Source: Ulota crispa (taxonomy: Eukaryota; Streptophyta; Bryopsida; Orthotrichales; Orthotrichaceae). Taken from it: a stretch of 64,000 nucleotides of DNA. The DNA lies in contig OY987246.1 of NCBI GenBank assembly GCA_963920765.1, forward strand, positions 7,442,501 through 7,506,500, in the 5' to 3' direction. Below, piece by piece: positions 23,412-55,664 of the stretch. Within the stretch, counting starts at the first letter, position 1; every line of letters starts with the position of its first letter. Both the position numbers and the translations under genes were made by a program. The notes below the pieces were generated by a model that searched no databases, was not told where the DNA came from, and worked only from the letters and a program-made list of their open reading frames with translations.

Positions 23412-23426
23412 CTAAAACCCTAAACT
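23383..23426. repeat. Short interstitial telomere-like repeat
   Basis: About five units of CCCTAAA or CCCTAAAA type in tandem. It overlaps the 3' end of the adjoining minus-strand coding region, so the last codons and stop are built from TTTAGGG units. Confidence 0.85.
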
Positions 23427-23858
23427 TTGATCTGATGATGACTTGTTATGAGAGCTCCGAAATATTTCTACACCCAAGTAATCGAGGACACCTTCCACGG
23501 CCACGTGAGGCTTGCACACCTTGACTCGAACATCAGAGACCGAAGGGTGCGTACTCAAGAGCGCCTGCGCAATCGCGCTCGCTACGGATTCCACCAGCTT
23601 GAAAGGTGGGCCTTCCACAATGCCCTTGATCTGCTTGTAAATGTCCGCGTAGCTCACGGACTGCTCAATGTCGTCGCTCTCGCCTGCGCGGCGAAGATCC
23701 ATCCACGCGTCCACGTCCACTAAGAACTTCTGCCCGAGCTTGTTCTCCTCGGCGAACACGCCGTGGTGGCCGTGAAACAGCATCCCCCGCAGCAGCAGTC
23801 GGTCTCTGTTCCCGGGAGTGCAACCGTCTCCCGCTCCACAACTGCTGCACGCAGCCAT
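23412..23858 (-). CDS. FOLB: Dihydroneopterin aldolase (folate synthesis)
   Basis: 148 residues. The enzyme converts 7,8-dihydroneopterin to 6-hydroxymethyl-7,8-dihydropterin and glycolaldehyde in the pterin branch of folate synthesis, which is cytosolic in plants. Family landmarks: LLLRGMLFHGHHGVFAEE (21-38), with the Glu after GV; VSYADIY (68-74), with the conserved Tyr; FKLVESVA (86-93), with the pterin-anchoring Glu; and VKVCKPHVAVEG (112-123), with the catalytic-type Lys116. An intron acceptor (TTTTGCAG) lies just before the chosen ATG, so upstream exons are probably 5' UTR; the frame stays open upstream without an obvious targeting sequence. The length is normal for plant FolB. Oddity: the terminal SLGF-stop is encoded by telomere-like repeat, so the extreme C-terminus may be recent. 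Confidence 0.92.
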   Translation of the reverse strand: MAACSSCGAGDGCTPGNRDRLLLRGMLFHGHHGVFAEENKLGQKFLVDVDAWMDLRRAGESDDIEQSVSYADIYKQIKGIVEGPPFKLVESVASAIAQALLSTHPSVSDVRVKVCKPHVAVEGVLDYLGVEIFRSSHNKSSSDQSLGF

Positions 23859-24496
23859 CGCCTCCCGAAATCCTGCAAAACGACAGGTTACAGAAAACGT
23901 TGGACACTCAAACACTCGAAGCAACTTCTTCTGAGAACAAAGAGTAGTGCAAGTACAATTGCAAGAGAAACAAGATGATTCACAGACCACTGGTAATTTT
24001 TCAACCAACGGGCATGGCGATTCTGTGCTCTCTCGTGTCTCAAAATTGACCTAAACACAACTTAGGTGCGCAGTCAATAACTTCCTCAACGCTGAATTCC
24101 AGATGAACAAGTTATGAGACCATTGTTAACACCGCCCCTCCCTGCACCACCAAATTTGGCATCCAAACTACATGCTGCAATCTCGAGCAACCGAAATCTG
24201 GAAAAGTTGACAAACTCACAGTTGAAATGAAAACTATTACTCGGGATTCGAAGCCATGGACATCCTTGGATCTTAAACCCGCGGTGAGCGTTCTCAAATT
24301 AGTACCTGGATTACTTGTTACATCGTCACAAACCCTACATTTCCCACTCGGGAAGGTAATCGCCACAAGCATCGATTGTGCAAGGGCAATTGGAAACGAT
24401 ACCAGGAGTAAAAGGAAGGAGCACAATTAGGAAAAGGAAAGATGAAACTCCGAGAAAAGGGGGACTCGCGATGTGTAAAACTCAATTCTGAAAAAC
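23859..24496. other. 5' flank of the folate gene
   Basis: Probably contains the 5' UTR, a 5'-UTR intron and the promoter of the minus-strand gene ending at 23858. No protein is supported here. Confidence 0.4.
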
Positions 24497-34972: not shown

Positions 34973-37900
34973 TTGTCACAAGGCAAACATGTATCATCAA
35001 CAAAATAAGTAAACTTGTTGTTTGGCTATAGTATTCAAGAAATTGCTATCATTTTCACTGATCTATTTACTTCTTGGTCGATAGACTTTGTGAGCATATT
35101 AAGGTTCTACGTGTTATTGCAGAGAGCAACTACAACCCCAATTGTACCAACTATGATCAATCTCTGCATAGCTAAAAATCAGCAAGCAGATTAAGAAGTG
35201 GCATTAGGCCATTAGCTAGATACATTTTATAGGACAATTTAATCAAGATAACATTGAAGTTATAATTATAAAATTATCACCATAGCAAGCATGAATTCCC
35301 AATTCCTAAATCTTAAATTCTAAGTCCTAAATCCTACACGAATCACATCAAGAAATTACACAAGATTAACAACAACCCAAAACAAATGGGGAAGTACATG
35401 TGATGCCAAAATATCCAAAAATTTGTACAACCTCAATAATTGATCTAAGCTGCAACAATCTTCAATAAGCTTCAATGCAAGCTATAGCCAATACCAGCAA
35501 ATACTAATTCCAATAGAAGCTTCAAACTCTTGTGATTTTTTAAAAGAAGAAAGTAAGAAAAATAACTCTCCAGAGACCTATGAGAATTTCATCTACGAGA
35601 GTATATGAAACTTTTCTAGAACCTATGGCAATTTCATCTACAAGAGTAGAAGGTAAATTCCTTCTAGTGCCTTTCTATCTGTTTTGGCTCTCAATTGAGC
35701 TTTCATTAGACTTTGAGAAAACTAGATAGAATCATATATTCACTAAAATGAGAGTTTCCTACTGAAATGAAAGATCTTAGTATCTCTTTTTCATTTTTTT
35801 GAGAGATTCTCATGAATTTGAGAGGAAACTTGATTGAAATTTAAAGGAAACACGATCTAAATTTGAAAGGTTTTAGATCAATTCAGCTTAATTTGAGCTA
35901 AAATTGAAAGGTTTTAGGTCAATTCAACTTGATTTGAGCTAAATAGTCAAATTCAAACTTTCATTTTAATGAAAATTGGTGTTTTTAGTTGAGCTTTGAC
36001 CTAAATCAACATGGTTATTTTGAGAGGTCCCCATTCTCTCAACTTAATGAATATAGGGTTATAGGCCATGTTTATACCTTAACCAACAACATAATAAATG
36101 AAAATCTTGGAGCTTGAAATTTGGTACAATTGGTATGATTTTGTAAAAAATGCTTCCAATTTCTTTATTTTTCTCCTTCTTAACAATTGAAAGGTCATTA
36201 CATACAATAGTATTAAGTATTCATTTAATTCTTTCTAAATCAATGTTTCTGCACATATTCTAAGAGAATGTATATTAAGATGATATATTATTTTGAAAAA
36301 TAATTATTAATAGTTTTACGTTTTACATAAATATCTTGCATATTAATTAATAGAAAAGACAAAGAATAAACATCGAAGTAATACATATAAAACTCAATAG
36401 AAATATAAGATTAACATGGGATATACAAATTCATTGCAAGCATGTTCTTTTTATACTACCTTGATGAAGCAAAGTAAAAATTAAAACTTATTATTTTGGT
36501 TTATGTAAAAATAAAATGGAATAAATAGAAAAATAGTAAAAATAAAAGTGAAATAGAAAGTTACAACCCAAACCTAGAGAGTTTGGGACCCAAACATGGG
36601 AAGTTCAGATCCCAAACTTGTTGTATTTGAATATTATTATTTAAATGAGAGATAAGTTGAATGTTCAATAAAAGATAAGTTGAGTGTAATATTCTTTTAC
36701 TTGTATTGATCTACTGCTATAGGCCAATTTAATCTATGGGCCTTATTTTGTCTTGTGTCTTTGTTAAGATAAGGATTATATTAATATTTTCTTCACATAA
36801 TTAACTAGAGTTTACTTTTATAGAAGAATTCTATGGACCAATAATACAAAAGGACTTTTTATTTATATCATCTCTCACCTTGTATATAGTGGAGTAATCT
36901 ACTTGGAATATACTCTATTACTCTTTCACAGCTTCTAACTTTTTTCTTCTTGCATGCTTTGGTTATATATTTTCTTTGTAGCTTCATTGTGTTTTCTATT
37001 TGCGATAGTCTTAAAAGGTATTTGCATTAGTTCATCTAGTTCTTGGTTTTTTCTTGCGGCAGTTTGAAGTTTGCTTGTGTTACAGTTCAAGTGCATTGGA
37101 ATAGCATGGCTTATGGTGCTTGCATTATAAAAATAATAATAATAGAATCTTTATTGTGTTAAAAAGTATTATAGATAGTATGCTTTCAATTGTTTACAAG
37201 AGAGGTTTATATGGCTTCAATTAGCATATGTTATGAATTTCTATAAGGTTGATTATTGATATTTGAAAAGTTTTGAAAGATACTTAAGAAGTGTAATGGA
37301 CTCTTCCAAGCTTTTACCCCTCTTGGTTAACACTATGTAAGTTTTCTATCCATATACAATATATTATATAAAAAAGTTAATTGTTATTATTTTCATGTGA
37401 ATTTTATGTAAGTTGTTTATTCTTTTTCATTATTAATTAAAATTTTAATTGGCTTTGTTATGAATGTATATTTAATTTACTATTAACAAAAAAAAGTCCT
37501 AATATATAATCATAATATGTTGCCCACAAATTACACGTACAATGCACCAAGAAATCAAATGACAAACAAATAATATAAGAAGAGCCCTTTACCTTCACTT
37601 TTAACCATCTGTATTTGCTGTGGTGTTTGGTAGTGAGGCATTTGGTAGTTTCTTGTGGTACACTCGCGCTTCAACTGGCATTGCAACCTCCATGGTTGCT
37701 CATTTCCTCACATCTACGCTTCACACTTTTTTATCTCTCTCTCCCCCGTTTATTGCTCGCTTCTTAAATCATTTACACTTGATGTTGAACCTCATGCTAT
37801 GTCGGTGGATCATTTGTTCTGTCACCTATCACAGTCGCAACATTTCCTCTTGCATCAATGCTCTCACTAGAGAAACAATAAAAAGTCAAGAAAGTCACTA

Positions 37901-39029
37901 TTACATAGAATTAATTCCTAAAGGACCAAGCCCTTTTTTTTTGCCAAAATCACTAAAAACTGCCACTTCTAGGAGGTTTAGAAAAAAAGGATTTTGTATT
38001 TTGTTTTTGGGAAATCCAACCATAGGATCTTGCCCTAGACTAGAAGAGGTACTTGTGAGAAAAAGATCAGCTCATTCCAAATGGAGAGGAGTGAGATATT
38101 TACATCTAAAGTGAAATAAAAAGTTATTTTCCATGTTGCCCTAAATTTTCAAAAACCTTTGACCACTCTTATAACTAAAAAAATGCTCTACCCAAAGTTG
38201 TGCTTTATTTTTCCATGTAGGAGATCAAGTTAGGTATGTGTGGGAGAATTTTCAAATCAATTGAAACTATACAAGACATGGGGAAAATTAGTAAGTAAAA
38301 AGAAGTAGAGAATGAGTCAAAACACTAAATTGTTAAGAATTTAACTATTAAAATGACAAATGCAAATCCCAATGGTGATAATGTTGTGATAAACAATCTA
38401 CTTCCTTTGATTTAATTTTTTTCCAAAATATTGAAAAATGAGTAAAATAAAGGACTTCAAAGTTTATTTTAGAGTAGAGATTCCAGAATTGCCCGCAAAC
38501 AAAAACTCCTCATAACTTTCATGTCATTGATTGAAATTGAATGATTCAAAGCTTCTCATAAATAAATAAATAAATGTAAAGAACCATTTTCAAATTTGTG
38601 TTGAAAAAACAAGTAAATTTTAAAGAAGTTTTTGGGCTGCCCGAACGGGCAGTCATCTCCAAATTTTTATAAATTCATGCATAACTTCTTCGTTAAATGT
38701 CGGAATGCAGAAAAATTTAGATGCCCATGTAGATCTTTGAATTCCCCACCTTCAATAAAAGTTTCAGAAAATCACACAAAGTAGTTTAGCCATAGGTACA
38801 TGCTTGAAGTCCAACCTGTCTCTCGAAGGGACAACGGTCTTTTAGGAGCTAAGAACAGGAACTCTCCAAAAGATGATAATGGATAAGTATCTATAAAAAC
38901 AAGTAAAAATAAATACATCAATTGCACAATGATCTAAAAATAGCATTTAGAACTTTTGATTGTCAAAAGCTATGTACATTATTGAACCAACTTTTGAAGA
39001 ATTACGTACCTAACTTGAAGTTATCTATT
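34973..39029. other. AT-rich spacer, nothing supported
   Basis: About 4 kb with a duplicated stretch of about 75 nt at 35865..35945 (GAAAGGTTTTAG.TCAATTCA) and many A/T runs. The frame at 37620..38114 has no recognisable domain or gene-like composition. Confidence 0.5.
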
Positions 39030-42000
39030 CAAGAAGGATTGACATTAGGCAAGTAATCGGGTCCTTGGTTGTGTATCCTTCATTTTATATGCTATGCTCA
39101 TAGGTCTTTTGTATGCAACTTTCCTTGACAAACCAGGCTCCACTAACATAAAAGTATGAAGTATTGAGCTTATAGGACAAATGCATGAATGATCAAATGG
39201 ATACCAATGATTGTTGTAGACGACGTTCATGCCAGTGACTTCATTTACTAAATCCACATATATCTCTTCAAATTCTTTGTAAGATATGTCTTGCAGATGA
39301 TAGTAATAATCAGCAGTAAAATAAATGGAGATTTCACCTATAAAATTATGGCTAAAGAATCCACGGATCTTTGCTTTGAAAGGAGTACCATCCATGTCGT
39401 TATCACGTTTTACAACAACAAGACTTCTTGTTCTGTACAGGGTCCCCTCCAACATGATATTGTTGATTTTGGTGATAAGAGGGACCCGCCTTTCTCCCAT
39501 GTCGAAGCATAGAATCAAAATTCTTCAATCTCAAGTGATTGAGTCACTTTTGGAGCAAGTTTCCGTCCAATTGAGATGCCTTTGATTGCTGCTATTGATG
39601 CGCAAAGACTTCCAATTGCAAGTTCTTAACTCTATGTAATGTCTTTTGCTTTCGCAATAGAACTAGTGTGGATTCTACATTTGCTGTGCCAGAAAGGACA
39701 CTGATGCAACCCTTCATGATTGTTTGGGTCCACTCCTTTGAGATACATCAAAAATCCATGAACCTTTCTAAGAGCTCTTTGACTCACATGAAGCAAATCT
39801 CTTTCTTCACTTATTTGATGCACCACATTTGTGAAGAGTTTGCGCGAATAGTAATGGATGAAGCTTGTTTCCATCAGTTTATTGTTTGTTGTAATGTTTC
39901 CAAATCAAGCTACCTCTTGTTCATAGACAAAATACTAGTATATACCACTTGTACCAAATCTTCGAATATCATAAAACATGTGAGTTGCACCAGCAACATG
40001 CTTTAAAGGAGCTCCATTATATCCATCAAGTTTTTTTGAGCAAACTTGCCATGCTTGAAAAAGCAATTGAACAGCTTGCAAGTTCAGGGTATTCCAACCA
40101 CTAGTCCTTGTTTGGTTGAAAAAAAATGTGCCAAGTCAACAAGCAAAGCCCCAATAAACAATCTTTTTTCAGAGATATGACCATGGAGTACATGTACAAT
40201 ATGGGGTAACAACCACTATATGAACTTCTGATTTTCCTCAGCCATATAAACATAATGTTTTTGAATTGGGTCATAGGGCCACCTTCCTTGCTTAAGTTCA
40301 TATGGACGGCTTTTGTTGATTTGCGCACAAACTTTTCAAACTTCTTCCAACAAAGATTCATCACGTAGCAAAACTACTTCATCAAATAACTTGGATATAT
40401 AATGCTTCAATAAATTGAGACAAGCAATGTGCATTACATCAAACACCAAATCATTTGAAATGTTGAAGTCGTACAAATGGAATAGTTTCCATAAAATGGA
40501 TTCTCTAGATATTCCCGATTCTCAAGATATAAGCTCCTTGGCAATAATTGGGTCAGCTAGCTTCCAAGCACGGACACTCTGAAACAACTTGTTTGCATTG
40601 CGTCAGGGTGGTGGGTCATGAACCTGCATGAATGATCATTTTAATTAAACTACAAGTATAACTAGTAACTAGGGCTAGCTAAATTTTTTATTTACAGTCA
40701 AGTGAAATTTGCATATTCTATAAACACCTTTGGCGCTTGAATTGTACTTAATTCAAAATTGTCTAACTCTAACAATTCTTAAAGTACATTTGGCACTAAC
40801 AATAGAATACTGAAATTATTAAAGCCCAAAACTCACCTACATCATCTTTTTTTTTTAAAGCATTGAATTGTGAAACAAAAGGAATCAGTAAAAATATGAC
40901 CTTCTTCATACCTCTCTTTGCATCTTCTATACTATCATTTCAATTTCAACCAATATCTATTTTTTTCTATAATATTGCAAAAAAAAAGAATGTTCTATTA
41001 TAGATATCCCTACAATTTTCATAGAATGACAACACACATAATATTTAATGAGAACTATAATTGAATTAGAAATTAAAAAATACATAAAGGTATGCTATGA
41101 ATGTATTTGGATATGATTATGATCATACAAATATTGCCCTTGCGCACTAAGCATAGTATGCATAACACATTTACGGCATCCTGATTTTCCAAACGACTTC
41201 AGTTTACCAATTTGACATTAGGCTGGATAGTCCCCTATGACAAGCATAAGAATTACCTAAATGGTTGTAAGACCATTCTACATAATTGAAAGATGCTCAC
41301 TTATGTATTGATTAGGAACTAGAAAAACTACTTGAAAACCATCTAGAAATAGGCGCTCCAAGTCTTCTATCAAAGGTTGCAAGAATGCACACTTGGCATC
41401 ATTCATTCTTACATGAAGAGCATCAATTTGAGAATGTAGAGGAATGAAAAGGACATGCAGACTTTGTAAATGACCTCCATTCTATGCATTCAACACATTT
41501 GCTGAAACAGACTAGCAGCTTATGGATCCATGCTTTGATGTCAGAAAACCATCCTAGTGGATTCCCAATGCAACATTACAAGGATCGCCTACACATATAC
41601 ACAATTCATTGTTTAGATGACCAACTACTCAGAATTTGAGAAACAATTTAAAAAAAAATTATATTGTGTGATGAAAAAAACTATAATTGAAACGAATTCA
41701 GAAGAACACATAAATGTGTACATACAAAGTTCAATTACCTTTGCATTTGATCCTTGGTGCTGTGATGTAATCTCGGCATTGCTTGCAATGGAAATTGTAC
41801 ATCTGCATTGCCTCATCCCAAATTTTTCCCTGGCATATCTTTGGAAAAGACTTATGAGCCATTTTACAACTTTGACAAATGACAAGTAGTTCCTACATAG
41901 TAAAATGGTTCCAGAAAGCTTGATAAATCCAAACTTTCTTGCCATCCCAAAAGTCCTTGATTTCTTTAGGATGTTGCAAGACACCCTTCTTCATCCACCT

Positions 42001-42904
42001 TGACTTTTTAGTCCACATTGTCCAAAAATCTATACAATGTTTGTACAATGTGTTAAAGAACGCATCAAAAGCGCAAGTTGGTCTCCAAGCGGTAAGTGGT
42101 CAAGGGATATCATATTTTTTTTCATGATATTACAATCTGTGCAAATCTCAGCATGCTTTGGACAATCTCTTTTATTCAATGGTGGATCACATTGACATTG
42201 CAATGTTTCACTAGTGATATAACTATCTTCTTTGCTTGGGGGATATACATTTGGCTCATGACCAAATGTGTTTGTGCTCAAACACATCTTCCATCTACAA
42301 GGTTTTATCATACCCAATGCTAAATATGTTTTAACCAATTTTACCCAAGACGTAGGTGCTCTAACCCCTTCAAGGTGTCCATCCCAATCTTGGTAACTAT
42401 GAAAGGAGCTTCCCTAGGGTTTGCTTCTCAAGTGGAATGCCGACATCATTGGACCTCCAAAAAATTCGCTTAGCATATATCCTTGCAATTCAAGGAACGC
42501 TTCATGTTTGTCCCACATTCTCTAGATGTTAATGAGCTTTACTAAAAGGGCAAATTCCACTGTGTGTCCTTGCATGTTGTAAACAACTTCCATTAGAACA
42601 TCTTCTTCTGAAACATCTTGCTCTAAAAGCTGCAAATAAGCATTGTCTGTCGCTTCTTCTGAAGAGTTTCTAGTAGAGCTATCAATGTCACATATATCAT
42701 CAACTGGGGCTTGATCAGCACTGTAAGTGTTTACACTACTATCAATAATTCAATATTGAAGGTTGTCGTCTGAAGAAGTGCATCTCTTCTTGCATGATAG
42801 GTTGCAGAAGTGTGCAAAAGAAATCTTCCACCACTTTCTAATAACTTGCAATTGCTACAAATACACCAAAATCTCCTATCCCGTGGGTTGGCTTGATGTT
42901 CCAT
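39030..42904 (-). pseudogene. Decayed CACTA/Plavaka-type (Tnp2-like) DDE transposase
   Basis: Read on the minus strand with frame changes and stops. In order: a Cys motif (PRDRRFWCICSNCKLLESGG) near 42850; a Cys-rich block (CPKHAEICTDCN) near 42150; a further CQSC..C..C block at 41750..41870; GDPCNVALGIH-stop-DGF near 41555; YLQPLIEDLERLFLDGFQ-type sequence near 41370; GDYPA..CQIGKLKSFGKSGC near 41200; LWKLFHLYDFNISNDLVFDV then MHIACLNLLKHYISKLF at 40380..40500; GRWPYDPIQ near 40280; and a C-terminal open block at 39045..39518 with IRGFFSHNFIGEISIYF. The DPxNVxLG...DGF, PL.E.L..L..dG, D(Y/F)PA and DvMH..LNL landmarks are those of Tnp2-type CACTA transposases. Many stops show that it is dead. 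It is divergent from the gene starting at 44380. Confidence 0.75.
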
Positions 42905-43892
42905 TTCAATGCAATTACCATAGAATTTGTAAAAAAAATTGAAGCATTATATTAGAATGGCTTTTCATGAAGACATTTGTATGTTTGAACTTTGACCAAA
43001 AACCCATCTTTGCCTCAATGAAAACCAAACAACCAGGGTTTCAGATAAACCAAAACAAGGATTACTAAAAAAAAAAACCACCTTTTGTTGCATTGGACTG
43101 TTGTTTCATTATGTTTATTTCTAAAAAGTATTCTTCACCTATAACAAAACAAGCAAAGTTGGAAACAGTTCAAATTCACTTAGGATTTAAGATCTCACTT
43201 TGTAAATAAACATCAATGTAGGAACTAGCCAAAAACCCATCTTCCATTCATGAATACTAATAGAACAAGCGATATGTTCAAAAACTCATCTTCCATTTTA
43301 TTTTTCAAAAATAAGATTTAGGGTTCTTTGAAAAAAAGGAAATTGCACATGAAAAATGTTGTGGCAGGGATGAAGATTTATCTACTTTGCAATATATGTA
43401 AATGCTGCAATTTGTACAATGATAAATCTAGATTCAAAAACAAATAAAAATCAATATTTTTGCTAAATTGGTCACTTACCGATGGACTTGTTTGAGCTTC
43501 CTTATCCCTCAACGCAATTGTGCAGAAAAATGAGGAAGGTATGAGACTAAGGATTTGACAAAATCCTGCACATTTCCAATCATAAATTTGTCAAGTAGTT
43601 CTCTTGTATTGCGCTACTTGTGTTTTTCATTATATGGACATTCAAGCTTTGTTACTAATATAAAGCCTTACCAAAAAAGAAAAGAACTTGCCTAGGGCAC
43701 ACAGGGAAGAACCAAACATTTCGTTCGTGACTGCGATTCCTCCAATCCGCGATTCCGCAAGAGTTTGGTTTCACTAAGACAAAAGCATATACAAGGAGAG
43801 GAAGAGGATATGGCTGAGGTGTTCTCTGGCACAGAGAAAACAAAATCACAAGGAGAGAAGGAAAAAATGGGGGAAGTGTTTTTGTTTTCTTA

Positions 43893-44245
43893 TCCCATAT
43901 AAAAAACCTTTAATTTAAAAAAATATTACAATCATGTATTAGGATTTCTTTTGTTAATAGCACATAAAATAATTTGGATATTAAAAATTTTTTACAAAAG
44001 ATATGAAACTCAATTAGGTGATCAACCTTAATGTTTTCTTATCTCGTGTAAAAAATCTTTAATATTAAAAAATATTACAATCATACATTAGGATTTCTTT
44101 TCTTAATAGCACGTAAAACAATTTTGATATCAAATTTTTTTTACAAAGGATATGAAACTCAGTTAATATTAAAAAATATTACAATCATGTATTAGGATTT
44201 TCTTTGTTAATAGTAGATAAAATATTTTTGATATTGAAATTCTAC
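43893..44245. repeat. Three tandem copies, period about 120-150 nt
   Basis: Each copy contains ATATTACAATCATGTATTAG then GATTT and a tract ending GATATGAAACTCA. The array lies between the two divergent decayed genes, immediately upstream of the start at 44380. Confidence 0.8.
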
Positions 44246-44379
44246 ATACACAAAGAAATTAAGTTAGTCAATTGGCTATAAGTTTTATTTTTCCCAATGT
44301 ATAAGTGTAATAATCAAAAATTAAAAACGTATTATAGTACAATATTGAAAGAGATGTTTTTCTAATTCTTTTTTGTGAA

Positions 44380-47277
44380 ATGATTATGTATTACAAAAAA
44401 ACTAAAGGAGATGACGTTAAGATTGATAAGCGAAAGGAATACATTAGAGCTAAGAAACACAACAAGGTGATTTTGCAAGTTAAAAATGTGCAATCTAAAA
44501 TTAAAGGTATTATTTCTAGAATAGTATGAAGTATATATATATAGATTTTATAAAACATGTGTTTATTTTATTTTGTATAAATATATGAAAATATAATTTT
44601 ATACCTATATAGTAGTATTATATGTTGTATTTTTTATTTTGAGGCATTTATTCTGAAAATTTTCTTTCAAATTCTAAAAGGTTATTGCATTCATAAGGAT
44701 ATGATTGCTTTGAACTACTTGTATGTATTGAAACATGTTATCTTAATGGGAATTGATATGTGTACCACACCCTTTCAATTACTGTATCACATCCTAGAGT
44801 AAATTTTAAATTTCTACCATCGAAAAGTTAAATTTGAGAATTTGGAATTCAAATTTGGACTTAGAGACCATGATTTAGTCTAAAACCACAAAAAAGTTAC
44901 AACTCAACACCCAATGAAAAAACTTATATTTTTTTACAAACAAAAGTAAAAGTAACACTTTTTTCCCTAGCTAAATTTTTTCATTGAGTGTTGTTGAATT
45001 GCAATTTTTTTATAGTTCTAGACGAAATCATGGTCTCTAAGTCCAAATCTGAATTCCATTTTATCAAATTTAGCTTTTTGATGGTAGAAATCTAAAATTT
45101 ACTCTAGGGTGTGGTACAGTAATTGAAAAGGTGTGGTACACATATGAATTCCCTAACTTAATTAATAATAGGTTACAAAAATATGAAGTATCTCTATTTG
45201 TTATTTAAATTATCTAATTATACTAAAGCCATTTTTATTAGATAAGGAAAAATCTTTTTCCAAATATATCTTAAGAGCATTGAAATTTTCCTTGGTAAAA
45301 ATATTTTCATGACTTGAAGTTGAGTTTTTAGAAATTTCTTACTCTTTTATATAAGAGTTTGAAAAAAATATTAAAATAAATACTTTCAATTATCAAAAAT
45401 CTTTAACAACATAAAAATGAATAGTTTGATAATTACATGTTTTTCCAAAATTAACAAATATGGTATTCATTGCTTTATAATGTTTTAAGTTTTAACTGCT
45501 AGTTAAATATATCTTGTTTAGCATGTACTTGTTTATTTTTATATTGTAAATACCTAAATATTCAATAGCTATAAACTTATTTTAAATTAAAGAAATATAA
45601 GTATTATCTTTAATTAGTAATATGTAATCATTTTCAATATTTCTAATTTGCAATCTTAGAAGTAAAAAATATTTAAAATATTAAGAACTAGAAATATGGC
45701 AATATTAGTAATTTGTAATAAATCTTTGTAATTTTCTTAATCAGAACATCTATAATAAATGTTTAATATATGATTATTAAAAAAAAATTAAAACAATAGT
45801 TTTATTTTGTATTCAATATAATCTAAAATATCATATCAAAAATTTAGAATACATTGTATTATTTTATGTATTAAAAATTTAGACTATAAAACTTCTAAAT
45901 AAAATAACATTTACGAAATTTAAATCAAACCAAACTTTTCATATAACTAATAAGTAGTATATACTATATATATATATATATATATGGGATTTGGAAACAG
46001 AGTGTGAAATTAAAAAAGCTTCTTAGAATCGTCAAATATAACAAAGCATATTTTAAGTAATGTAGGATAGTAAAATTTTTAAGGATTAATAAAGAAAATG
46101 GAAAGTCAATTTATTCTTAACTTTTATATAAATAATATATTTTTATTTTTATTTTTATCTTCACATTAATAATTTTGTGTATTTGACCCAGATGCTTATA
46201 TTATGCAAAAAAAGAGAAATTTAGAGGACACAGCAAGTACTTACATAACATCTATTCCTCTTGACTATATCTGCATTGGTCATGGAAAAACAGCCGTTCA
46301 AGACAAAGTGTCAAAGGAAATAGTTTTTGTTGTTAATTTTATTCCATTTGAAAAAATGACTGATGAAGAGTATAAAGAGAATGAGAAATTAACTTCTTTT
46401 CTTATGAGCGCAAAGAAAGGCGCTAGTTTTGTGACTTCTAATGGAGCTCACAAAACAGGTGATATGTACACAATTGGATGGAAGGCATATATACACAAAT
46501 TAGTTTTGTTTTTACTTTCATTTTTTACTTATTAATTAGTTTTATTTTTATAAATTTTGTAAAGATAATTTAACATATACGTGGTTATTCTGCATGAATA
46601 AGTACTGATAAAAAAAAAGTGCTGGCTAGTACGTTCCTAATGGCGATATTCAACAAGACATACCAAGCTTATTAAATTGGGAACAAGAACAATTGTCTAT
46701 GAAGAATATTTCTTCTATTTATGCTAAAAAGTTTGCAATGTTGGCGCCATCCTTATTTGAAAAGACAAAAAAGGAATTTAAAGAAGCTAATGTTCCAAGA
46801 ATTACTAAAGGAGAATTTAGTACTTTATGTAAAGAAGAAGAGTATTTTAGTAGTAGTCTAACATATACACTCAACAACTTTAGTAATTCATTTCATAGAG
46901 ATTACAATTCTAATCCCTATACATTTGGTGTTTTTGCCCCAATCTGTTTAGAAAATGGCACTTTGGCCAGCCAAAGCAGTGAGTTTAAATGTTAGGGAGG
47001 TGAATTTGTGGTAGGCGATTATAACGTATTTATTGATTTTAGTGGATGTGACGGAATAGTTGAATTAATATGGCGAGGTAAAATTGATAGTCAGTGTACT
47101 ATCCCTTCTACGACATCTCCAAACTTTACAAGACTTGGGGTTTCTTTGCAAGTAAGCAAAGATTTGGTTCATTGGATGAGACTTTTAGCAGCAAGGCAAC
47201 TGCAAGGTGAAGACATCGGGAAACGAATCCGAGGCATTCAAGAAATTCTCCAATCCAAAATAAAGAAAATAAAATGA
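44380..47277 (+). pseudogene. TET/JBP-like 2-oxoglutarate/Fe(II) dioxygenase, decayed
   Basis: Three exons with matching phases: 44380..44506 (basic N-terminus MIMYYKKTKGDDVKIDKRKE..), 46192..about 46500 (DYICIGHGKTAVQDKVSKEI..TGDMYTIGW) and 46630..47277. Exon 3 reads YVPNGDIQQ..; then FHRDYN with an HxD metal-binding pair at 46894..46902; PYTFGVFAPI; GGEFVVGDYNVFIDFSGCDG; IVELIWRGK; and FTRLGVSLQ with the Arg expected to bind 2-oxoglutarate. This order is that of the TET/JBP oxygenase domain, whose members oxidise 5-methylcytosine or thymine in DNA. One in-frame TAG (46993..46995) splits exon 3. Where a second metal-binding His is expected (DSQCTIPS) there is Gln (47092..47094). Intron 1 holds a MULE-type MITE. 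The family call is by pattern only; the second exon's donor is uncertain. Confidence 0.6.
44748..45153. mobile_element. Foldback MULE-type MITE (GGGAATT family)
   Basis: 406 nt made almost entirely of two inverted arms of about 190 nt, beginning GGGAATTGATATGTGTACCA and, from the other end, GGGAATTCATATGTGTACCA. Flanks TATCTTAAT (44739..44747) and TAACTTAAT (45154..45162) match at 8 of 9 positions. It lies in intron 1 of the dioxygenase-like gene and shares terminal sequence with 60514..61004. Confidence 0.85.
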
Positions 47278-48814
47278 AAGAGTAAGCAATTATATAGATT
47301 TTTGTTTAATTTAACAAAAATCATTAAGTTATCGTTGCTTTCTACATTTTTTATATTTATTATCAACTTTTTGTTAGTATCCTTGATCTAATTATATTTA
47401 CATCCTTTGTTGACGGCAGGTTGACAACTCTAGCTAAAGAGCTAGCGAGCTAGCGGATTCAACAGCCACAACTTGGAGCATGGCAATTCACGGGAGTTTA
47501 TAAATTCATGGTTTAATTTGTTTTTTCATATATTTATTTGATATAAGCTTTTAGCGCAATGTTAGTGCTTGAATTTGCTAGCCATATGTATTAATCCTGA
47601 AAGCCTAATTGGATGATTGTGTTTATTCATTAAAGATTACAGCATGCTTGTTTATAGTTAACTAACTATAAGAGAAACTCCGACATATATGACAAATATT
47701 TGACAGGTCGGTGTTAACTGTATTGTCAATTTGAATGGGTTGATTTGGTCAATCAATTGATAGTTTTTAGTCAATTAGACTGTCACTTTGGACACGTTTC
47801 TACATCATATTCACTTATGTCTTTCTCCTATGTTAGGCTGAACTTTCCATCCACACCATCCACTTTTACTTTTTAAAGCTTTATTTGTTTGGGCTTCAGA
47901 GAATGCCACATTAGTTCATCAGAACATTGTGGTAGGCATGTACAACGCACTTGGATTGGCTTAAGAACATTAACACAGTCATGCAGTTTTATCCCTTAGC
48001 AAATAAAAATATCCAAAAGCTGGGTCAACCCAAGTTTGACTAATGTAATCTCATTGCTCCTTTGGTGAAACCACCTCCAGTCAAGCCCATTACAATGGAG
48101 ATGTCTTCTACTAACAATTTGTATGATCCAATATTGTAATTTGTTTTTTTTCAATCCATAGAGGCATTTTGATTGCAAGTAGGTCGAACTTTTTTGGTTC
48201 AAGTCTAGGCGCTCAAGGGTTAACACCCTTGTCAAAACGTGGCTCTTTTGTTACAACCTTCTAGTGAAAACTTTTTGTGCTAATTATAGCTTTTTTGCTA
48301 CACCAAAATTGGTGTAATTGTTCTATAGGGTTTTTTGAAAAGATGTAAAATATTTAGCCAACTTTCATATACGGGTTTGGGAGTAGGAGCACAATTTTTG
48401 GGATTTAGGGTGATGTTGCCTCACCCTAGTATCACTTCGCCGGCCCATGTCGCCTAATAATGATGACTTGACTATTCAAATAGCTATTTGCATTCATTTA
48501 TGATGTAACTTGTTGCCCTGCCCATCTCCTTGTGATTTGGCTTAGCCATACATTATTTCAAGCTATTAGCATCTGCTGGCAATACTTCATAACTAGAGAG
48601 TGCCATATTTTTTATAGCTCTACAGCCGCCATAGCCATTAGCTTGTGTTTAATGCTTAGTAATTTGTACTCAATACTCACTGCAGTGCTCAATGCTTAAT
48701 GCTTGCTTTCATGGCCTGAATTGTTGAACCTGCGTCTCTACATGCAATTCCTTCCATGTCAACAAATTGCAATTGAATGCACCATTAACACAATATTTGT
48801 TAATTTAAGAAAAA
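47278..48814. other. Spacer with a diverged CACTA MITE
   Basis: Apart from the element at 47661..47806 and a short TCAATGCT-rich patch near 48640..48710, I see no structure or gene. Confidence 0.45.
47661..47806. mobile_element. Diverged CACTA-type MITE
   Basis: The left end, ACTATAAGAGAAACTCCGAC, and the right end, read inward, GTAGAAACGTGTCC, resemble the termini of the element at 26640..26791. The interior has the same alternation of TGTCAATTTG/GTCAATTAGACTGTCA motifs. The ends are degraded and no target duplication is left. Confidence 0.5.
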
Positions 48815-49645
48815 TAATTTTCTAAAATAAATTTTAGGATATTGAAATTTTGTATTTGTGAGAATAGTTTGGTAATTTAAAGTGAGTTTTTTGATAATTC
48901 CTTCAAGATGTTTCATCATTGATGTAATGTCTTGACAAAATCATCATAAAATTCACTCTACATGACCTCAAAGCTCTTAAAAATGAAACATTCAGAAGTC
49001 CCAAAATTTACCTTTTATTGCAACTTAACAAATATGGTGTTCCTTGTCTTTGATTATTGCTATAGTTTTGAGTTTTCAATTTTTGATTATTACATATTCT
49101 AATGAATTGTAAAAAAATAAAATAAAACATCTACCTTTGAAATGTACCACCAAAGTTAGCCTTTATGATTTGTGTCCACAATACTATACGTAATATGATT
49201 AATTTTGGTACAAATTTTTATTCATTTGATTATGAGAAATCCATATTATACAAAGCTACATATAGGTACATTGTATAATAAAATTGCCCCTACACTCACA
49301 ACTACAAAGAAAGGTTGAGATTTTATACTTATCATTCTAATCTTTAATTTTTTTCATGCATGATTTTTGTCTTGTGGTCAAATTAATGCGTTATTCATTA
49401 AATTGGGAAAAAACACTTCCCAAAATGTATTTTGGAAACATTAACTTTTACATTTGTGAGAGTACTTTCATGATTTGATGTGAGATTTTTTGATAGTTCC
49501 TATAAGATATTTTATCATTGATGTAAGGTCTTGAAAAAATCAGAATAACATTCACTCTAAATCACCTCAAAATTTTCAAAAATGAAAAATTCAGAACTCC
49601 CAAAATTGAAAATTTCTCCCAAATTAACAAATATTGCATTCTAAT
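48815..49645 (+). repeat. Direct repeat pair, about 235 nt each
   Basis: 48815..49050 and 49400..49645 share a series of blocks (CATTTGTGAGA, ATCATTGATGTAA, GTCTTGA..AAATCA, ATTCACTCTA, ACCTCAAA, CAGAA.TCCCAAAATT, TTAACAAATAT) in the same order. The spacer between them is AT-rich. Family unknown. Confidence 0.7.
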
Positions 49646-50760: not shown

Positions 50761-52691
50761 ACTTTCCACAAAGTTTATACAATGATCTTTACTCTATAAA
50801 AAATTCCTAACAAAATAACAAATTGTGTAGTTTCTATGGTTGATCAAAATCATCACCCTTTTACATGTGAGGCAACAAACTTTTCCCACTAAAACATGCA
50901 CAACTTTTGAATGCTAACTCCAAATCAAACAAACATAGAATTTTTAAAAACCTCACACAAAGTTACATAAATTCAACAAATCTCATTTTATAATTCTATA
51001 TATACAATAAGTTATGGCTCTTGCCACATTTGGATCTTTAATCCCAACTTCCCATTACACTCCAAAAGTTTTAAAAACTTCCTAAGATGCTTTTAGCACA
51101 TGAATCAGCCTATACTCTTCTTAAATAGGTGACCCTACTCCCATTGAATCCCTTAACTTACCTTTATCCTTATTTTGAGATTATTCCACCTCAAATTTTA
51201 GATTAAAGGCAAACTACTTTAGGATTTCTCCCAAACTACTTTTACCAAAGATATCTACCTCATTTTTTTTCACATTTCCTAATAAAAGAACAAATATAAA
51301 ACAAATACCACTAAAAGATGCCACGTATCTTTTTGAACATACAAAAGGGCTGAAAGCTTATCTCTAGTCACCAAGTTGTAGACTTGGTTGATAAGAGTAG
51401 CGGTGATCTTTATCGCTCATTTTATTTCAACTCTTGATTTATTGAAATCTAAACAAAATTAAGTAATAAATGTATATCTACATGATAGAGGCATCTCCAT
51501 CATAACAGCGCAGCAGCAACTGATTCTTAGAGTCTTTATAAACTTAGAAAATTGTATTTTTTTGAAAATAAGTCGCACAAAATGTTGGCAAATTGACACT
51601 TATATGTTACTAGTTGACTTTGGTGTTCAGAGTTTTAAAATCATTTCAGTCTTGAACTTATTTTGTCTCTTCATGTTTTTAAAAAATACATTACTTGCAT
51701 TCCAATTTGTTATTCCAGTTCTCTTTTATTTTGGATTTTTGTTGTTTTTTTAGACAGTTCTAATAGAGTTTAGTGAGAATAGATTGAGTGGAAATATCAA
51801 AAATTTGGCTCGTTGCATGCTGTTTGAGTGAGTTAATGATGGATCCCACATTTGTAGTCTTTACCATGCAATTTGGAGAAGGAAAAGGTGCAACAAAAGT
51901 TAAGAAGCCAATTTTGAAGGAGTTTTTTTAAGAGCTTTAGAAACTTGGACTGCTAAAACGCTTTGGTAATTCCAAAGTCTGAAGGCAAAGGAAAGAAGAA
52001 TGTCAATGAAAATGAAAACGTTTCACTTAGAGGTAGAAAAGAGACTACTAGTCAAGGCTTCAGCCAAGAGTTGGGGCTTTGTAATTCATTGCTAGCTTCT
52101 AAGGTGGGACAAAAAAAGAAGGTCTTATGGGCAGTTGCAAGAAACACTTCACAGTTTTGTCTCAAACACCCTTAAAATTGGTAGTACTATGTAGTACCAC
52201 GAGCTTTTGAAATCATTTTTTTTAAATTAAATAAAATATGGAAAATTTGTAAAGCACTTAAAATAGCTTACATGTGAAAATTCAGACCTAGAGATTTTTT
52301 ATTCTAAAAGTTATGCACAAAACAAAATCACCAACAAAAAACCAATTTCTTTCTTGTTTTTTAGAAAATAGTAAAATAATTCAAAAAAATAAAATAAAAA
52401 ATTGGCCATTTGAGAATTCATTAAACACATTCACATGGTACAATTGCTTTGTTGAGGAATTTCTTTGTATTTTGCCAATGAAGGGAGATAGGATGCCCAC
52501 TTAGAGACAATGTAGATGCCATGGAGTTTATAATTTTGCAAAACCCTTCTAGAAATGCATGTAAGAATGCTCCATAAACTACATCCCTAATTTATAGCCC
52601 TAGAAAAGCTTTTTTGAACCCATAATAGCACTAAAAACCCCCAAAATGGCTAAGGTAGATACCTATTTGGGGGCTGTTCAAAAATAGCAAA
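50761..52691. other. AT-rich spacer, 5' flank of the hAT remnant
   Basis: No gene supported. Short open frames at 51562 and 51963 have no recognisable domain. The 5' terminal repeat of the hAT element may be here, but I could not find it. Confidence 0.4.
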
Positions 52692-55664
52692 ATGATTTTA
52701 AAAAAACCACAAAAATTATGGAAGGTCTGTAACTATGACATGTACCTTTCTCTGAAATTTCAATTCAAAAGAACTTGCTCCACAAAAGTTACAAACCAAA
52801 AAGCACCTGCAAGAGGTGAAGGGGACAACAAATTGGACCGGTGTTTCTTGCAATCACCCTTATGCCATCCAAATTTCTCTAATTTGGTTGTGTTTTATGA
52901 CACTAATGCTACTTTACTGGAGTCTTCCAATGTTGCAACTACACCGGGAACTACACCAGCTCCTATTGCTCTTACCTTGATCCAAATTAGGAGCTTCCAA
53001 GATTCTTGGGTTACTTCTTTTCCTTGGGCAGAGAAAATGTTGGATGAGAATGGCATGGCTGTGCTTGTCAAGTGCTTGATTTGTACTAGGATTGAGGGGA
53101 GGATTACAACAATAGCTATGAAGAAAGACAAGTTGAATAAGCATGCCGGGTGGAAGTGTGCAACTCGTGTCATGCCAAGGGAAGGAGTCATGGTAGGAGA
53201 ATGGTATAGGGACAACAAGAACAAGCATTTCATAAATGAAAAGGCTTATGCTGCATTATCACGCGGAACTATTTCACAGAAGCTTAAAAGGGCAGGTGAT
53301 GAATTAGATTGCAAGAAAAAAGAGCAATTTGCTTGTGTCTTTTGGCTTTTGAGCAATGTTCGACCCGTGTAGGATTTCCCTTCACAATGTGATCTACTTC
53401 AACACATTGGTGTGAAGATGCCTAAAAAGCATTGGAACATTGAGTCTGGTTGGGGCATGGCCGAGGCGATTCATTTTGTATATTGTGAAAAGATTAAGGA
53501 GTTGTTGCAAACGGCTTAGTTCATTAGTGTTCCATGCAATGAGGCCACATCAATTGATAATAGATCTTGGATTTCAGTTCATATATACGTGATCATTGAT
53601 TTTGTCCGTGTCCCACTTTTGCTGCATCTTGAGGAAGTTATGGGTAAAGCAGGATCTGATTTGCTTAGTCAAATGATCATGCATGGTTTGTTAGGGGCTG
53701 GAGGCTTGACTTATGAGCACTTGATGGTCAAATTTGTGTGCTTTGGAGCAGATGGTGCATCCACATTCCAAGGATGTCGGCATGGAGCTGGTGTACAAAT
53801 TAGAAAGAACTTTTCTCTCCATGTATTGTGTGTCTATTGTTGGGCACATAAGACACATCTTGCTATCACTGCCATTTTTGGTCTCATGGTGATAGCTTGT
53901 ATGGAGGTAGTTCTTCAAAAAACTCATGAATACTTCTCTAAGTCACCCAAACGTCACCTAGAGTTCACTAAGTTAGCCAAGATCATGGAGACAAAGGGAC
54001 GCAAGATCTTGAAACATGTCAAAACTCAATGGTATAGCATGTTGTTGCTGGCTCAAAGGATCTTAAGTGAGTATAGGACACTAATTGTCAAGATGGCACT
54101 GGATAAGGACAAAAAGAGCCATGCTAAAGCCCTCCTCAATTCCCTCTCTGATTCAAAGATCCTTTCAGGGTTAGCTTGCATTGTGCCTCTTATGGAGATG
54201 GTGAATTGCCTCAGTGAGTATACCCAAGCACGTGATGTGTACATTTGTAATTTTGTTGCCGCTGTAAGAGAATGTATCAGTGGGCTTCAATGTATGTACA
54301 TTGAGGAGTCTACAACCTTCATGTCAAACCATTTTACTATTTTGAGGGGCTTAGAAGACACAACCTTGGAGTCAATTCAAATGAAGTGGGTTCTAGATCT
54401 AAACTCCCCTAATACTGAGGTAGAGCACCTAACATTTCAATCATCTGATGTTTCCACAAACATCTTTGTTGTGAAGAGCAACTTTATAACAAGAAAGAAG
54501 ACTAAAGTAATAAGGATTAATTGGGCAACAACATCCAAATCGGTGAGAGCAATGTATTGGTGAGTTCCAAACTCAAAACCCTTCAAATTTATTGTTGTAT
54601 GGCCTTTGAATTTAATTCCTTTCAATTTTATAAACATAATTCCTTTCAATTTAAGTTTTGTTTTGTTTTTTTCAAATGTATTCCTGTTTGTATCATAGTC
54701 TATGTTCTTATATTTATATGTCCTTTCCTTTCAAATCTAATTAGTCTTGTGCTCTAATTTGTAAGTGTTGTACTTTATTTATATACATTCTTTTTGTTTA
54801 CATGTCTTTAAATTTATATATGTGAGTTTTAATTTGCTTATTTGTCTTATCATTTATTGATGTGTTTTTTTGTTTACATGTCTAAATTTTCATTTTATAA
54901 GTTTTAATTTGTTCATATATTTAGCCATTTTGTTATGTGTATACTAATTTATTTGTGTGTCTTATAACGTATTCATGTGCTATAATTTAGCAATGCCTCT
55001 TCAATTTATGTAATACATGTTCTAATTTGTTTGGCCTTGAGGTTGTGATGTAGGGGCAACTCAATCACTAATCTCTGAGTTGACAATTCAGTTCCCTAAC
55101 CAACCTCTCATGGATGCATTTGGGATTGTGTTCCCCCAATTTTGGATTCATAAAGAGTCTTGTGATGCAAGCTTTCACAAGCATTTAGCAGTGCTCAAAT
55201 CTAAGTATTGCACTGCTCAAGAGATGAGGCCAGGGGAAGGGAGGAGTCATGTTTGGGTGTCACCTCCTTTGAGTGAAAATGCCCTTGATGAGCAACAAGC
55301 CATGTTTTGGTCAACCATGAAGGCCAATTCAGAGCAAGCCATGACTCCACCCTATACACAAAACCCACTTACAAGGCTATGGCAAATTTTTGGTGCAAAT
55401 AAAATATTGCTTGCAGCATTTCCAAAATACTCCAAGATGGCTAAATTGGCAATGGTTTTGGTGTTGAGCTCGGCTGAGGATGAAAGGACATTCTCCACAG
55501 TTGGCATTGTGAAATCCAAAGTGAGAAACAAACTCATAGATCACCTTGCATTATGTGTTCAGATGAAAACTCAACGATTTTGGACTCTTGACACCTTTCC
55601 ATTTGGTGAAGCTATGCATGAATGGCAGTTAATTAATAATAGATATGGGCTCAATGGCCTGTAG
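52692..55664 (+). pseudogene. Decayed hAT-family transposase
   Basis: A single frame from 52692 to 54563 is interrupted only by two TAG codons (53370..53372 and 53517..53519). A C-terminal block follows at 55080..55664, probably after an intron with a GTGAGA donor at 54543. N-terminal part: a BED-like zinc finger (LVKCLICTRIEG..KKDKLNKHAGWKC). Middle: FVCFGADGAST with the DDE-type Asp and LCVYCWAHKTHLA, as in plant hAT-like proteins. End: LSSAEDERTFSTVGIVKSKV then RNKL, the hAT dimerisation region. Long uninterrupted similarity of layout means decay is recent or mild, yet the stops and the phase mismatch at the last block make it non-functional as read. Terminal repeats were not located. Confidence 0.88.

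Follow-up and report, generated by a model that had tools for sequence, protein, structure and literature searches.

The 64-kb window examined here (64,000 nucleotides of the moss Ulota crispa, contig OY987246.1, to whose positions all coordinates without a further label refer) contains a spliced plus-strand gene resembling the TET/JBP dioxygenases, which faces, head to head, a decayed transposase gene on the minus strand. Very probably, the former is a decayed member of an old Tet-like family dispersed through the moss genome, and the latter a separate insert of later date. Judged from sequence comparisons, the two genes are separate things and their layout is an accident of nesting, since a distinct tnp2-like element was later inserted upstream of a Tet-like copy. 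The genome searched comprises 274.8 Mb in 157 contigs; C1-C11 designate the chromosome-size contigs (6.3 to 41.4 Mb, C7 not being included in this range) and L-numbers (L001, L048, etc.) the loci fetched from the same genome, L048 being the C6 Tet-like copy, L050 a C9 locus with two Tet-like copies and L037 the C5 copy of the transposase.

The separation of the two genes is apparent from the closest relatives of the window copy, the other copies of its group (group A). Left of the stretch holding the transposase lies the upstream part of the Tet-like locus (37013..37518, plus strand), which matches sequences 5' of Tet-like genes on C6 (C6:10813103-10813661), C9 (C9:8490949-8491245) and C2 (C2:25167134-25167431) and stands upstream of the gene in all three other group-A copies. 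On C6, positions 37013-37518 (L048:604-1165) are followed by 43883-47660, from L048:1169 on; on C9, positions 37190-37518 (L050:4950-5246) are directly joined to 44190 onward (L050:5244); on C2, about 50 bp lie between 37190-37518 (25167134-25167431) and 44269 onward (25167087 and below). Moreover, the two window flanks, once joined (37201-37518 and 43879-44400), give an alignment to L048 that spans the junction (651 bp, 71%, E 6e-90), and one such alignment in L050 crosses it by about 15 bases. Because its flanks lie together in three other close copies (C6, C9 and C2), the stretch between them, 37519-43882, came later.

These loci bear directly on the proposal of the first-pass annotation, according to which a single plant transposon of the CACTA/Plavaka type carries its own Tet-like enzyme, both moving between shared ends. 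The divergent arrangement that inspired it, with starts about 1.5 kb apart, was borne out by our analysis, and TET-carrying EnSpm and Plavaka transposons are described in fungi in passages of PMC12730594. A joint transposon has nonetheless become highly improbable here: the transposase stretch is missing from all three sister loci, and both long transposase copies found elsewhere, on C5 and C2, are without a Tet-like match within 690 kb, the nearest Tet-like place being 1.57 Mb away for the C5 copy (C5:4.98 Mb) and 0.69 Mb away for the C2 copy (C2:31.9 Mb). Across the genome, the smallest distance between a Tet-like place and a tnp2 match is 17 kb (36 places compared with 150 tnp2 matches, those scored out of 596 candidates), with, in addition, a short tnp2 fragment in L043. 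Each gene is therefore found without the other, an outcome that the annotation itself had named beforehand as contrary to its proposal. A TET-carrying transposon would hold both genes within shared termini bordered by a target-site duplication; this combination was not found at the locus, nor were terminal repeats. Gene order alone may hence suggest a transposon partnership which sister loci disprove.

Regarding the Tet-like gene itself, Pfam scans (cut-offs: 27 bits for PF20515, 34.9 bits for Tet_JBP PF12851 and 28.6 bits for tnp2 PF02992) match it to PF20515, the Tet-like 2-oxoglutarate-Fe(II) oxygenase superfamily. The first half of exon 3 (46630-46992: 67.4 bits, E 2.4e-18) and the second (46996-47274: 43.2 bits, E 5.8e-11) exceed the cut-off, and the exon 2 region falls under it (46185-46481: 17.3 bits, E 0.0049). 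The label "TET/JBP-like" given at first pass thus holds for PF20515 and does not for Tet_JBP proper, for which the gene reaches 12.3 of the 34.9 bits; PF12851 has no match anywhere in this genome and likewise none in the control genomes. The spliced structure and the three motifs then described (HxD, GGEFVVGDYNVFIDF and RxGxSxQ) were found again, the first reading HRD and the last R-L-G-V-S-L-Q. Two GT-AG introns of matching phases, drawn by eye (44509-46192 and 46486-46629), separate three plus-strand exons. The start at 44380 belongs to a tentative exon 1 (44380..44508), which would encode a basic N-terminal region and is an open frame with a donor after 44508 and a phase that, by eye, fits exon 2; its DNA is kept in L048 and L050, but L048 has no ATG and L050 a one-base insertion. 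Exon 2 (46193..46485) begins the oxygenase domain and is placed by the PF20515 match under the cut-off, a 43% match to the metagenomic protein P0001 and the L048 alignment. Exon 3 (46630..47277) encodes the catalytic core, PF20515 matching either side of an in-frame TAG, and homology to L048 (C6) and L050 (C9) runs on to 47658-47660, which delimits the 3' part of the locus (47278..47660, plus strand). In the PDB, a sequence search with a window half-exon returned one chance-level match only, to a dUTPase (E 0.034), and the family profile none up to E 10; a search of a plasmid collection gave no match.

By its reading frame and catalytic residues, the window copy is dead. The TAG codon (46993-46995), which had gone unremarked at first pass, falls between the HxD and GGEF motifs and, with residue roles assigned by analogy with TET, HxD and the 2-oxoglutarate-binding Arg are kept and the distal Fe-binding His is replaced by Gln, which leaves incomplete the set of residues of an active 2-oxoglutarate oxygenase (HxD, distal His and Arg). 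Since L048 and L050 have His at the distal position and no stop at the corresponding codon, the window copy seems to have undergone both losses on its own; L048 and L050 are each broken elsewhere.

The transposase remnant on the minus strand, whose start near 42904 had also been recognized at first pass, extends to 39533 (39533..42904), as shown by tblastn with the chain of the C5 copy (55-74% identity, many stops). The two long copies lie at C5:4982836-4986399 (82-84%) and C2:31917430-31920201 (68%), the former reading as a 917-residue chain. "Tnp2-like" seems a fair name for the remnant: the sole Pfam transposase match is that of PF02992 to the read-through C5 copy (E 0.037, 13.6 bits, under the cut-off), the window remnant itself, scanned in five separate pieces, gave no Pfam match, and the C5 chain contains DGF, GDHPAQC and GCRRC, which we take by eye as tnp2-like motifs. 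Of the CACTA/Plavaka-type assignment, the CACTA-like part is plausible, though weak by profile, and the Plavaka part was abandoned, PF18759 having 10 matches genome-wide and none in the window. The inserted stretch as a whole (37519..43882, minus strand, ends good to a few bases) is not present in the Tet-like copies of C6, C9 and C2 and has its left end in common with the C5 transposase copy (L037:951). It may have arrived in more than one insertion, since homology to the C5 copy spans 37515 to 42959 and then stops, and 43000-43882 has no other match listed in the genome, so that the right end of the insert is without a second copy. At the two ends (37515-37521 and 43878-43885), neither a CAC...GTG terminal inverted repeat nor a 3-bp duplication was recognized. 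Two dispersed repeats are nested inside: an unstranded one at 37911..38850, positions that are adjacent in the C5 copy (L037), with copies in L001, L007, L013, L049, L053 and L055 among others, and a second, also unstranded, within the transposase gene (40652..41024), which is not in the C5 copy and has 31 short matches elsewhere in the genome. A tnp2-like element would thus have inserted upstream of the window Tet-like copy and later have been hit itself by two smaller repeats.

The only named relative found comes from Puccinia graminis, which might speak for fungal contamination or an assembly error. This explanation is very improbable, copies lying inside chromosome-size moss contigs and the window copy being interrupted by genome-wide repeats. 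Intron 1 contains a miniature inverted-repeat transposable element (MITE)-like element (44748..45153, unstranded, with 162-nt inverted arms) that has at least 36 further genomic places at 88-91% (40 scored of 4574 candidates) and, because of these copies in the same genome, the Tet-like gene appears to be a resident of the moss genome and not a contaminant. The window also holds a FolB gene (23412-24050), whose closest named relatives by identity are from Ceratodon purpureus (82%) and Physcomitrium (73%), followed by the liverwort Calypogeia (65%), Ziziphus jujuba being first by E-value (61% over 67%); by identity, the gene thus points to a moss as host.

Genome-wide, PF20515 gives 42 matches which merge to 36 places, distributed on C1-C6 and C8-C11 with none on C7; 33 of these places were fetched wholly or partly, those left out being at C1:26.97 Mb, C2:6.10 Mb and C3:21.97 Mb. 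About six moss groups are resolved by a family tree built from 28 moss rows, eight of the 12 metagenomic proteins (P0001-P0010, P0012 and P0013) and one Puccinia row, near-duplicates and moss rows under 95 usable residues having been excluded. The metagenomic fragment P0009 is placed within group B (support 100/98) and for this reason probably derives from a moss; the remaining metagenomic rows cluster in a separate clade. A search with the family profile retrieved 13 proteins, the sole named one being PGTG_09785 of Puccinia graminis (E 1.9e-19), which itself matches PF20515 with E 8.3e-51. Named plant proteins were not listed, though the database holds moss proteins; since this search requires shared five-residue words, it cannot prove absence from named plants.

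In the alignments available, the deep branches of the family show protein-level constraint, i.e., past purifying selection, and younger comparisons drift towards neutrality, the ratio of nonsynonymous to synonymous substitution rates (dN/dS) being lowest in deep group-C pairs and higher in groups B and A. Indeed, of the 28 group-C pairs, those with dS >1 (20 pairs) have dN/dS of 0.16-0.40 and the other eight 0.31-0.48, compared with 0.42-0.77 in group B (10 pairs) and 0.48-0.84 in group A (6 pairs), the two Tet-like copies in L050 being treated separately; the exact values are weakened by near-saturated synonymous sites in the deep pairs (proportion of synonymous differences, pS, up to 0.72; dS up to 2.4) and by the bias of alignable parts to conserved stretches. 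Most of the copies that were read are broken. In a catalytic census of 32 rows, in which the C10 duplicates count twice and six rows lack full cover of the four positions, seven rows retain all of H, D, H and R, seven are stop-free in the aligned part and none combines both; the six incompletely covered rows include L049, in which H, D and H were read and no stop was met. The open frame of L001 extends over 325 residues, but its Arg is replaced by Cys. L003 (C4:11295416-11298904, at C4:11.297 Mb) is the best-preserved locus, with canonical introns, all four catalytic residues and five counted stops, of which four fall within an intron and one follows the core; its upstream sequence has no match in the other fetched loci.

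From these observations, we infer that the intact ancestors would have been nuclear enzymes oxidizing a modified DNA base, most likely 5-methylcytosine (5mC), with the help of Fe(II), 2-oxoglutarate and O2, as proposed for their fungal relatives. If exon 1 is real, its basic N-terminal region would suit a protein that faces DNA in the nucleus. The genes would have multiplied under selection for protein function, the copies dying afterwards at their landing sites. A bolder scenario, which we regard as unlikely, is that the moss lineage took up a fungal-type Tet-like oxygenase that was selected through a mobile, multi-lineage expansion against methylation silencing and of which one or more members are kept in working order, perhaps domesticated (the L003 type being the candidate). 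If true, a land plant would oxidize 5mC by a TET-type route.

Several points weigh against an old, dispersed Tet-like family with a later inserted transposase as the explanation of this locus. Besides the two limits on dN/dS, the sub-threshold Tet_JBP score and the unmatched right part of the insert, structure models were poor (mean pLDDT, the predicted local distance difference test score, of 38.2 for L001 and 44.5 for P0003), too low for a fold search bearing on the double-stranded beta-helix of TET/JBP enzymes. No terminal inverted repeats of the Tet unit were found in the window, in L048, in L050 or at the deduced ends of a group-C pair, and no target-site duplication was recognized at Tet-like units. 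Finally, fragments of mobile elements each lie near single Tet-like copies: one of a Pif1 helicase in L044, hAT-like ones in L054 and L055, and one of tnp2 in L043.

How the family spread is a sub-question, and the two answers considered here are not alternatives to the reading of the window gene as a decayed family member. The Tet unit lacks clear ends, so that the data show the family neither to have transposed nor to have been duplicated in the ordinary way; a non-coding flank of 1-2 kb around the gene is shared within groups, and alignment of the 3' boundaries of eight group-C loci gave ragged, not sharp, ends. A first answer, to which we give a nearly even chance, is that other mobile elements (e.g., hAT, Helitron or Mutator-like) moved the genes, as in rust fungi, in which one Tet type is common to seven transposon lineages, the carriers in the moss having since decayed or gone unrecognized. 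It fits the dispersion of copies over ten of the contigs C1-C11, the deep constraint with decay at the tips, the common flanks and the single Pif1, hAT-like and tnp2 fragments nearby; passages of PMC12730594 moreover describe transfer between transposon superfamilies in fungi. This answer is opposed by the lack of terminal repeats and by a scan for carriers covering 94 open frames (at least 78 aa, Pfam E up to 0.01, a repetitive frame left out) around 13 Tet-like loci and, L050 excepted, outside the Tet-like gene. There, no transposase family was found at E 0.01, let alone a recurring one; the matches consist of one Pif1 helicase fragment, a small number of domains resembling those of host genes and two additional pieces of Tet-like sequence. 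Helitron and Plavaka matches are listed at least 190 kb away, and KDZ has a single match. Since Pif1, hAT-like (single fragments by tblastn in L054 and L055) and tnp2 (one in L043, likewise by tblastn) remnants are near single Tet-like copies, a varied set of carriers is conceivable. No recurring transposase carrier was found, hAT, Mutator and Harbinger not having been searched genome-wide.

Individual candidate carriers were rejected on their distribution: for Helitron, the nearest listed match is 194 kb from a Tet-like place and a Pif1 fragment occurs in L044 only, and the one KDZ match of the genome is on a small contig. The Pif1-type fragment, placed by eye at L044:847-1104 (minus strand), about 3.5 kb from the Tet-like copy, is perhaps a Helitron remnant.

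The second answer, which we consider plausible at somewhat lower odds, is that of an ordinary host gene family, perhaps founded by one fungal acquisition, which grew by DNA duplication and mostly died, one or a few members of which may still serve the host. A near-identical 7-kb duplicate on C10 (99.2%), a head-to-head pair at C9 and the state of L003 (canonical introns, a full set of four catalytic residues and a single coding stop, located past the core) agree with such a history. Against it, the spread over almost every chromosome (36 places), with retained introns and little collinear flank outside the gene, exceeds what tandem duplication would account for.

Further observations concern the arrangement of the copies. 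The two Tet-like copies at C9 form a head-to-head pair in a space of about 4 kb and belong to different groups, B (L050:3084-3685, minus strand) and A (L050:7389-7754, plus strand). L052 and L053 (C10:0.38 and 0.54 Mb) form the near-identical duplicate, which extends over 6,961 bp and comprises a Tet-like pseudogene with a tandem array upstream. In L020 (positions 4-1273), group-C upstream-like sequence abuts the 3' end of a Tet-like copy, pointing to tandem or nested copies. A solo 84% copy of part of the Tet upstream segment is present at C5:10036437-10036574 with no PF20515 match nearby, perhaps a shared promoter-like or mobile fragment. Just upstream of the window gene is a tandem array of three units of about 134-149 bp (43883..44269, unstranded), recognized by repeat finding, L048 having a longer array at the corresponding position. 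Arrays with units of about 145-160 bp are found just 5' of Tet-like genes in two groups (window 43883-44269, L048:1169-2250 and L052:5923-6882) and could be promoter or subterminal repeats. Elsewhere in the window, an inverted repeat of about 143 nt (48791-48933 and 49504-49636, 69%) surrounds a possible small element, related sequence being found in L011, L020 and L031. Positions 52659-55664 (plus strand) contain what we take, from its motifs, to be a broken hAT-like transposase gene, a Pfam scan of its middle piece giving no hAT match.

Land plants are known for removing 5mC by excision with DNA glycosylases and are not known to have TET-type oxygenases. The interest of the locus resides in the moss enzyme family, and in whether any member still works, and not in the gene pair. 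Indeed, this family makes it testable whether the lineage oxidized DNA bases and whether mobile elements used such oxidation against silencing, as proposed for fungi. As far as our searches reach, a large, formerly selected, fungal-like Tet family is new in a land plant. Among the titles and abstract starts of the top-ranked open-licence papers searched, none reports a TET-type gene from a land plant; the passages of PMC12730594 mentioning plants do not report a plant TET, and none is named in the excerpts of PMC13297926 and PMC12344493. In fungi, TET/JBP genes occur in 11 lineages of DNA transposons according to passages of Kojima 2025 (PMC12730594), which also present CcTET, another fungal type, as reported to oxidize both 5mC and 6-methyladenine (6mA).

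Compared with known systems, the inserted transposase resembles CACTA/EnSpm elements (tnp2, PF02992) by the DGF, GDHPAQC and GCRRC motifs of its C5 copy and by tnp2 being its lone Pfam transposase match, and differs from them by the sub-threshold profile score, no CACTA ends or 3-bp duplication having been recognized. With TET1-3, NgTET, CcTET and Chlamydomonas CMD1, the moss gene has in common the superfamily, as given by the Pfam description and the catalytic residues of the family, and it differs in remaining under the PF12851 cut-off and in its family profile being without a PDB match. The PU-type TET/JBP of rust-fungus transposons, as portrayed in passages of PMC12730594, differs in its host, and no transposase shares the unit in the moss copies examined, the adjacent one being a later insertion. 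It is nevertheless to this type that the best named relative, PGTG_09785, would belong, its PU-type status being deduced from its host, and the moss family shares with it the HxD...H...R plan, a high copy number and the division into several diverged groups.

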